Both the position numbers and the translations under genes were made by a program. Below, in pieces: positions 45,604-46,948 of a DNA stretch of 64,000 nucleotides. The stretch covers positions 248,001 through 312,000 of the forward strand of contig NZ_CP147920.1 of the NCBI RefSeq assembly GCF_039645995.1. Direction: 5' to 3'. The notes under the pieces were generated by a model. It saw nothing but the letters and a program-made list of their open reading frames with translations. It searched no databases and was not told where the DNA came from. Numbering within the stretch: position 1 is the stretch's first letter; every line of letters begins with the position of its first letter. Source of the DNA: Sulfurimonas sp. HSL3-1 (GTDB lineage Bacteria > Campylobacterota > Campylobacteria > Campylobacterales > Sulfurimonadaceae).

Positions 45604-46098
45604 TCAGGAGAAACGCTCCGCGATATGTCGCAGGCAGTTGCGCGCATCATCCGCCACGAGCGTGTGGGCGAACATCAGGTTGTGCGACAGGGCGAAGGAC
45701 TCGATGTTTTTGCCCTCCAGGCACTGCTCGGCATCTGCAGCGAGTCCCTGGTGTTCCCGCAGGCGTTCGAGCATGTGGCGGCGGTCGCCAGCGTAGGCGA
45801 AGACCGGTTTGCCGAGCGCCTCGGCGAACCCGACCTCGTAGACGGTGCCCGAGTCGGGTTCGAAACCGCGGAAGGGGTTGAGGTTCGCCATAACGATGTC
45901 GGCCCGGCGGATGAGGTCGAGGTTCGCTTTTCGGATCGCTTCGGCGGTCTTGTGCGGGTGGTCGAAGGCTTCGATAGCGTTGTCCAGGGGAAAGAGCCCC
46001 TCGAAGCCGTACTCGCTGCAGAGCTGTTTGAGGGCTTCACCCGCGGCAATAGGGTCAGGTTCGAAGACGTCGGGGCCGGCTAAATAGATCGTTTTCAT
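45604..46098 (-). CDS. Nucleoside 2-deoxyribosyltransferase
   Basis: A 164-residue cytoplasmic enzyme that exchanges bases on deoxyribonucleosides. The start MKTIYLAGPDVFEPD holds the substrate-binding YLAGP motif; RRADIVMANLNPFRGFEPDSGT and VYEVGFAEALGKPVFAY carry the catalytic Glu region. AAAGGATGCCGA precedes the ATG. It stands alone downstream of the structured gene-free stretch. Confidence 0.9.
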   Translation of the reverse strand: MKTIYLAGPDVFEPDPIAAGEALKQLCSEYGFEGLFPLDNAIEAFDHPHKTAEAIRKANLDLIRRADIVMANLNPFRGFEPDSGTVYEVGFAEALGKPVFAYAGDRRHMLERLREHQGLAADAEQCLEGKNIESFALSHNLMFAHTLVADDARNCLRHIAERFS

Positions 46099-46170
46099 TC
46101 GGCATCCTTTTGAAGTTATTAAGTCGCGCGGTCTATCTGCGCGGGGGCATCGCGCCGAGCGAAACCCAGT

Positions 46171-46380
46171 GTTAGCGTAGGTATCCGGACTTTGTTCGGA
46201 TGCCGTAATAAACGAGTGTGTTCTCTTTCTTCTTTACGACTCGGCATTTAGTGCCTCGCATGTATTGCGCTTTAGCGCTTATGCTTGCACAAAGAAGAAA
46301 CCGAACCCGAAAGAAGAAAGTGCAAAAAGCTGCCGCTTTCGGGGCATTCCAATCCTCGGTGATCCGGCCGACACGCTAAC
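46171..46380. repeat. Structured gene-free element with nested inverted repeats
   Basis: This fills most of the only gap above 300 bases (46099-46429). Outer arms GTTAGCGT (46171-46178) and ACGCTAAC (46373-46380) are perfect inverted repeats 210 bp apart. Inside are an 11-bp hairpin with a TTT loop (46180-46204, two G-U pairs), a perfect 10-bp pair TTTCTTCTTT (46226-46235) with AAAGAAGAAA (46291-46300, repeated at 46310-46319), small hairpins GGCA/TGCC (46243-46255) and GCGC/GCGC (46267-46278) with TTTA-type loops, and AAAGC/GCTTT (46326-46339). It looks like a folded RNA or a mobile-type repeat unit. No ORF with a start signal lies in it. Confidence 0.55.
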
Positions 46381-46429
46381 TACCGTTTCAGCCTTGGCAG
46401 AAAAATCGGATGCGGACTCTCTTCACTTT

Positions 46430-46948
46430 TCACTCTTCGTGCTTTGCCAGTATTTTATCGGCAATGATCCCCTGCAGCCAGGCGCCCAGCAGGATGTAGA
46501 AGCTGAGCACGAGGGTGAACCCGATGCCGAAGTAGCTGATCATCACGGGGAGCCAGGGGAGTTTGATGGCCCGGGCGTAGAAGAAGGCGACGATGAGGCC
46601 GTCGCGGGCCCCCTGGGCGCGCAGGTCGGCGAGCATGGGGTACCAGACGTATCCGGGGCCGTGGCTGAGGATGCCGCCGAAGAGGGCGATGAACCAGCCG
46701 CGAAGCCGTGAGCCCTTGCCGAGGTGTTTCGCGATGCTCTTGGGTTTCAAAAAGGTGTTGAGCAGGGCGGTGAGAAAAAAGACGACGAGCAGGATCGGCA
46801 GTATCTTGACCAGAATACCGAAGCTCTCTTCGGCGGCGAGGAGCGTCTTCTCCGGGGCGAACAGGGCTGCCGCGCCGTAGAGCAGGAGGGTGACGGCGAG
46901 CAGGACGCAGCCGTTGCACTTCGGCTTTTTAGGGGTCTTCTGTTTCAT
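46430..46948 (-). CDS. Permease half, ArsP/DUF318 family (C-terminal-type subunit)
   Basis: A 172-residue membrane protein with four to five helices. GPGYVWYPMLADLRAQGARDGLIVAFFYARAIKLPW-type sequence (conserved GPGYVWYP and FYARAIKLP) matches the second half of COG0701/PF03773 permeases. A CNGC motif at about residues 11-14 near the N-terminus could bind metal. It starts in an ATGA overlap with the other half. ArsP in Campylobacter exports organic arsenicals in a single chain; here the function is split over two genes. Confidence 0.78.
   Translation of the reverse strand: MKQKTPKKPKCNGCVLLAVTLLLYGAAALFAPEKTLLAAEESFGILVKILPILLVVFFLTALLNTFLKPKSIAKHLGKGSRLRGWFIALFGGILSHGPGYVWYPMLADLRAQGARDGLIVAFFYARAIKLPWLPVMISYFGIGFTLVLSFYILLGAWLQGIIADKILAKHEE

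Follow-up and report, generated by a model that had tools for sequence, protein, structure and literature searches.

Repeats with the potential to form intrastrand triple helices have been proposed for bacteria on the basis of sequence and in-vitro data (PMC4666352). According to the accessible text of this source, the BoxC, PIT or TM-ECO repeats belong to class II, with one pyrimidine and two purine tracts (Y-R-R) on one strand and stems of about 9-10 nt; they are intergenic, occur in many copies and have no link to gene function. We describe here a dispersed repeat, termed element B, that is like them in all these respects and for which they are the closest known kind. TM-ECO differs in being G/C-rich, with one conserved sequence and no strand bias, whereas element B is A/T-rich, changes its letters, shows a polarity relative to replication and was found in another phylum; the loops of TM-ECO measure 3-6 and 3 nt, compared with a first loop of 8 nt and an additional helix (S2) in element B (PMC4666352, accessible text). 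No description of element B was found in the mainly open literature on Sulfurimonas, Sulfurovum, Thiomicrolovo, bacterial triple helices or mirror repeats, and heptamers. A further likeness exists to H-type pseudoknots with a major-groove triplex, such as telomerase RNA, since the complement of element B shares their order of stem I, third strand and stem II. Unlike these RNAs, element B has no linked ligand, template or enzyme, is known from DNA sequence, and has a third strand of 9-10 or more bases. The comparison pseudoknots were those of SAM-V (PMC6061858) and guanidine-III (PMC5696562), as presented in the available parts of these sources. The RNAs of type III toxin-antitoxin systems (ToxI/CptI) are likewise pseudoknotted, triplex-containing and repeated (PMC4627078, available part); unlike in these systems, no tandem repeat with a toxin gene was seen beside the copy studied here, and copies lie between housekeeping genes.

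The locus lies in the window, the 64,000-nt stretch analysed here, which corresponds to positions 248001-312000 of the one-contig genome of Sulfurimonas sp. HSL3-1 (2,499,021 bp; G000). Two minus-strand genes (45604-46098 and 46430-46948) enclose a gap containing two repeats. An earlier note had described 46171-46380 as a single block of nested inverted repeats; these are two different repeats side by side, module A (46126-46212, plus strand) and directly downstream of it element B (46219-46434, plus strand), which is present in a long-loop form consisting of head and tail. The left end of element B is at about 46219, its right end is approximate (about 46425-46434), and it extends past the end of the block. 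Module A is a separate dispersed repeat, with DNA matches to query positions 7-94 alone elsewhere in G000 and in relatives.

The pairings noted in the block are all present: 8-bp outer arms (46171-46178 and 46373-46380), an 11-bp hairpin with a TTT loop (46180-46204), a 10-bp inner pair (46226-46235 and 46291-46300) that encloses small hairpins at 46243-46255 and 46267-46278, and the repeat AAAGAAGAAA at 46291-46300 and again at 46310-46319. Nesting beyond chance is supported for three of these, namely the inner pair, the repeated A/G tract and the hairpin of module A. The outer arms are not conserved; they bridge modules A and B, and in one other locus (L016) module A carries GTTAACG opposite CGCTAAT in the tail, so that their pairing looks like chance. 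The hairpin of module A (46180-46204, plus strand) was recovered by RNAalifold from 11 aligned copies, with changes on both sides that preserve pairing in 7 of its 11 pairs. Module A also occurs away from element B, with short matches in other genera; besides the window it was seen in L014, L016, L021, L023-L028 and L045.

The central claim of the earlier note, a structured, repeated and non-coding element, was borne out by copies, by folding energy and by co-variation. Folding was better than in shuffled sequence on both strands (z = -5.0 on plus, -3.7 on minus), with none of 200 shuffles as good on either. The DNA search yielded 25 matches to A or B in the own genome, and 17 of 41 genomes (the own genome and 40 relatives) were matched; one of the other copies of element B has 85% identity over 199 nt (G000:2207453). 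Rfam gave no match above the gathering score in the window, a tRNA search within the window found none, and DNA searches of phages and plasmids gave no match. The structured RNA that had been proposed is possible, judged from sequence, and is taken up below.

Alignment of copies resolved the head of element B into the following parts, all on the plus strand. The pyrimidine tract Y1 (TTTCTTCTTT, 46226-46235) forms the 5' strand of stem S1 and is followed by a 49-nt loop insert with two small hairpins (46236-46284), in place of which short copies have 2 nt. The end of the loop is the 5' strand of helix S2 (TTGCAC, 46285-46290). The purine tract R1 (AAAGAAGAAA, 46291-46300) provides the 3' strand of S1, and a turn (CCGAACCCG, 46301-46309), in which GAAC (46303-46306) can pair with GTTC (46220-46223), separates it from R2 (46310-46319), the mirror of R1 and the proposed third strand, in which the mirror is kept while the sequence changes. 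The 3' strand of S2 (GTGCAA, 46320-46325) co-varies with 46285-46290 across copies. The tail (46326-46425) is conserved among origin-near copies; other tails are found elsewhere. Short copies thus read, from 5' to 3', Y1 with 9-10 pyrimidines, an 8-nt loop, R1, a turn of 7-13 nt, R2 and 6 bases that pair with the last 6 of the loop; across cores, S2 comprises 5-6 bases after R2 that are complementary to the loop end. The 49-nt two-hairpin insert was also seen in L009, L010, L091, L107, L121, L157, L158, L176 and L177; its hairpins vary with pairing preserved (GGCATTTAGTGCC / GACATTTAGTGTC), and DNA bearing it has matches in other genera as well, which gives it the look of an independent cassette.

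A first covariance model, built from 11 short copies with S1 as the only structure, found 17 forward copies in G000; the remaining 12 of its 29 rows were reverse-strand matches to the same hairpins. Among 200 genomes of the family 15 were matched, seven in the genus of the window (g1), seven in another genus (g8) and one elsewhere. With a model of the head only, 22 of 398 genomes of the order were matched, the new ones mostly in another family (f6). Named records carrying the core were metagenome bins of Campylobacterales, Sulfuricurvum and Sulfurovum; an Oscillospiraceae match from the named collection (L219) lacked the architecture on reading and was taken as chance. Four cores in a row occupy one 2-kb intergenic region in a g8 genome (L201 6558-8101; G047:1848.5-1850.1 kb). 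A further large family of intergenic repeats, which has hairpins of TTTTCTTTT/AAAAGAAAA and arms of the GCGAATCGCTC type, was noticed near L135 19331 (G000:1099331), near L146 17865 (G000:2247865) and upstream in L009.

Co-variation was seen in all strands of the core. S1 (Y1/R1) was found by RNAalifold unaided, and S2 and R2 co-vary too. Within g1 at least four states of R1 exist (AAAGAAGAAA, AAAAAAGAAG, AAAGAAGAAG, AAAGAAAAAG), each tracked by R2, and other genomes add GAAAAAGAA, AAGAAAGAA, AAGAAGAAA, AGAGAAAAA and AGAGAAGAA, each with its mirror. When no condition was placed on R2, 77 distinct matches to S1 plus S2 were obtained, of which 51 had a mirror of 9/9, 10 one of 8/9 and 16 a lower one; the latter were mostly reverse-strand matches or members of another repeat family. 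With R2 borrowed from another match, a 9/9 mirror resulted in 11.5%. After dropping the 16 lower ones, 61 cores with a mirror of at least 8/9 were retained, which are not independent of each other. Their triads remain T-A-A or C-G-G while the letters change. A class II Y-R-R triplex is defined by three stems of 6-15 nt with A-A-T or G-G-C triads, and the 61 cores agree with this definition, R1 and R2 matching in 539 of 549 cells, compared with a mean of 447 and a best value of 470 in 10,000 permutations of R2. Where R1 is not palindromic (57 cores), R2 was its perfect mirror in 47 and its direct repeat in none.

Conversely, when S2 was left free and a mirror of at least 8/9 was demanded, 369 of 426 S2 cells were paired in 71 distinct matches (244 ± 8.4 expected); only 4 of the 71 had two or fewer S2 pairs. 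Mismatches in S2 include both G-T and C-A types. Scanning 24 sampled 20-kb stretches of G000 for the architecture gave no match, real or shuffled. In f6 the motif occurred in 22 of 26 loci and in 0 of 130 shuffles, which is weaker evidence because these loci came through a model that knew the purine-rich R2 columns. Since the copies share ancestry and trade parts with each other, these figures are not counts of independent events. Apparent chimeras were L078, L018 and L088; L078 combines the stem of one core with the R2 of another, and its R2 and S2 are unmatched. Altogether, we regard the architecture of triads plus S2 as highly probable, and these alignments agree with a triple helix formed within a single strand, either that of the element or its complement, and closed by a pseudoknot. 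The first loop measures 8 nt in those g1 and g8 cores that were scanned, 5-11 nt in f6 and 55 nt in the window copy, and is thus not confined to the 1-6 nt allowed by the program ITxF; the A/T-rich cores of element B are different from the TM-ECO/BoxC/PIT sequence CCCTCNCCC-N3-6-GGGNGAGGG-N3-GGGNGAGGG.

The frame across core and tail is open in many copies and indels are few, as would be expected if a small protein were read through R1, R2 and the tail. This reading is very improbable: neither Pfam nor NCBIfam gave a match, substitutions in R2 exchange Lys and Glu while still following R1, the frame is shifted by indels in the tails of L080, L112 and L091, and cores are joined to unrelated tails.

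The direction of element B follows DNA replication in most complete genomes checked. All 17 copies in G000 point along the replication direction, and 16 of them lie within 625 kb of the origin; for TM-ECO, too, clustering in the origin half of both replichores is described for E. coli K-12 (PMC4666352, accessible text). Among the matches listed, the three other g1 genomes gave the same picture (16/16 in G004, 16/16 in G006, 15/15 in G007), with plus copies on the right arm and minus copies on the left. The position of dnaA is at about base 100 in these four genomes and in G047, G223 and G339, and in G000 the GC skew changes sign near 1.2-1.28 Mb. Nineteen orthologous sites were defined in the four g1 genomes, at least 12 of which are occupied in all four among the matches listed, and 18 of the 19 are within about 625 kb of the origin. 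In f6, polarity was found for 7/7 copies in G223 and, at E 0.001 or better, for 3/3 in G339, where two of three weak matches were opposed. In the g8 genome G047, 14 of 17 left-arm copies are reversed and the right arm is mixed; as this genome has the architecture but lacks the polarity, the architecture does not entail polarity.

Gene setting was considered as a source of this direction. A gene on the same strand lies upstream of 52 of the 63 g1 copies, and a gene on the opposite strand lies downstream of 59; the remaining four represent one site with an opposite-strand tRNA-Pro downstream. In all 63, the tail is thus faced by the 3' end of a gene or tRNA on the opposite strand. The gene strand bias in sampled stretches of G000 is modest, and since a convergent gene pair looks the same from either side, the orientation of the element does not follow from gene direction alone. 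A location in the 3' UTR of a head-on gene holds in g1 and fails as a general rule in G223, where only 4 of the 7 copies have an opposite-strand gene downstream, and in G047, where no rule of neighbour orientation was seen (rows of minus-strand matches were read by hand in both genomes).

Which strand would fold has been considered from two sides. On the element strand the triads correspond to a purine-motif triplex, possible in DNA only, and on the complement to a pyrimidine-motif triplex within an H-type pseudoknot, which either DNA or RNA could form. Purine-motif triplexes are driven by G-G-C, and pyrimidine triplexes form in RNA, whereas purine ones do not (PMC4666352, accessible text); A/T-rich purine-motif triplexes would be expected to be weak. 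In the deviating triad cells R1 alone was changed in 9, Y1 alone in 3 and R2 alone in 1, and this, together with the A/T-rich triads, leans to the complement strand. The replication polarity, if it reflects an exposed single strand, leans to the element strand.

In the RNA alternative, the complement would make up the 3' end of the transcript from the facing gene, where a U.A-U / C+.G-C major-groove triplex in an H-type pseudoknot would stabilise or end the transcript. It could account for the gene ends that face every g1 copy, for the deviations confined to R1, which fit a peripheral Watson-Crick strand, and for a strand order matching that of the telomerase RNA pseudoknot, and it agrees with the ability of RNA to form pyrimidine triplexes (PMC4666352, accessible text). 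The neighbours in G223 and G047 imply, however, that the complement is often not sense to the adjacent gene; as S2 mismatches are G-T and C-A alike, wobble pairs single out no RNA strand, and a U-run terminator was looked for and none was found. We consider this alternative doubtful.

We tentatively favour, from the patterns in the genomes, a replication-linked DNA function of element B, with the structure acting at gene ends; it may well be wrong. Element B would then be a chromosomal intergenic repeat selected to fold when single-stranded, into a short intrastrand triple helix with a pseudoknot as lock. Folding would take place upon exposure of one strand, in the simplest case that of the element on the lagging-strand template. 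Once folded, the element may slow the fork down, act as a mark for it, or insulate the facing gene ends from each other. The polarity would persist since the fork meets the folding strand in only one of the two orientations.

IS200/IS605 elements and group II introns insert into the lagging-strand template. If element B were mobile by such a HUH or retro-type route and now mostly fixed, its strand bias would result from insertion, and polarity is as expected for this (PMC6006769, available part); dispersed copies, tandem copies in G047 and 7-nt arrays at one end would also suit it. The corresponding enzymes speak against it: reverse transcriptase (PF00078) is absent in G000, G004, G006 and G007, which also removes support for a retroelement or telomerase-like reading, and Y1 (HUH) transposase is absent in G004, G006 and G007, with one weak 177-aa match in G000, so that a REP/RAYT or IS200-type reading is not supported either. 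Furthermore, all four species have the element at no fewer than 12 of the 19 sites, and the one site lacking it holds another hairpin and is not cleanly empty. Mobility is thus unlikely. The MITE-like repeat of the earlier note is not supported, because the outer arms are not conserved, aligned copies lack shared terminal inverted repeats, most sites are orthologous in four species and no clean empty site was seen. An integron attC site was likewise discarded, the AAC/GTT order being reversed relative to attC as judged by eye.

The history of the sites points to exchange. At 15 of the 17 sites that at least two genomes have in common, the species carry different types of core, and tails are common to non-orthologous sites; this looks like ectopic gene conversion of cores and tails, as far as alignments tell. 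Of the folded recombination substrate once suggested, exchange of cores between sites is what remains, as no recombinase is linked to it. One site in G004 lacks the element and contains the different hairpin mentioned above, and other unoccupied sites hold extra genes. Beside a thioredoxin-reductase-like gene, the place of a G000 copy of element B is taken in G006 and G007 by other sequence of about 2.1 kb (L151 5248-7397, L152 5020-7199). Inversions around the origin keep replication polarity. Structure-prone DNA homogenised by gene conversion, with a polarity stemming from an ancestral cluster spread by such inversions, could produce the mixed core types and common tails with no present function. 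Drift or conversion alone would not keep the mirror and the S2 pairing, which outlast wholesale sequence change in two families, and we judge such a passive origin to be quite improbable.

Tandem 7-nt arrays follow 18 of the 63 g1 copies, starting 24-28 nt past model position 136, with units CACTTAG (or another phase), CTCTTAA, CGCTTAA, CGCTTCA, CGCTTTT, CTACCTA and GTGCTTA; the window copy has none. In L083, L109, L091, L105 and others the letters vary by site with period and start constant, and orthologous sites differ in having arrays. In 564 kb sampled from G000, the only arrays of period 4-12 and at least 24 nt were two neighbouring ones of period 7. Bacterial heptanucleotide simple repeats share the period, the intergenic place and the differing units, and unlike them in general the arrays of element B sit at one fixed place, the end of the element (PMC4679880, available part). 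Heptamers are the commonest category and may reflect polymerase slippage (Mrazek 2007, quoted in PMC4679880, available part); slippage near a paused polymerase would fit these arrays.

Compared with known intrastrand triplex repeats, the pseudoknot, the A/T-rich triads, the co-variation and the polarity are new. In the accessible text of PMC4666352 no evolutionary evidence was found that the triple helix itself is kept; in element B, changes in the third strand accompany changes in the base pairs that it would contact, which is evidence of this evolutionary kind. Element B might be a naturally occurring pseudoknotted intrastrand triplex on which selection acts directly, with co-variation of three strands in two families and a single orientation relative to replication on both arms around the origin; it would then serve as a polar structural mark that acts on the fork or on how the origin half of the chromosome is folded, a possibility we regard with considerable reserve. 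The finding concerns those who study non-B DNA, the structure of RNA or the organisation of chromosomes, and the polarity and the bands around the origin make an action on forks, transcripts or chromosome layout testable.
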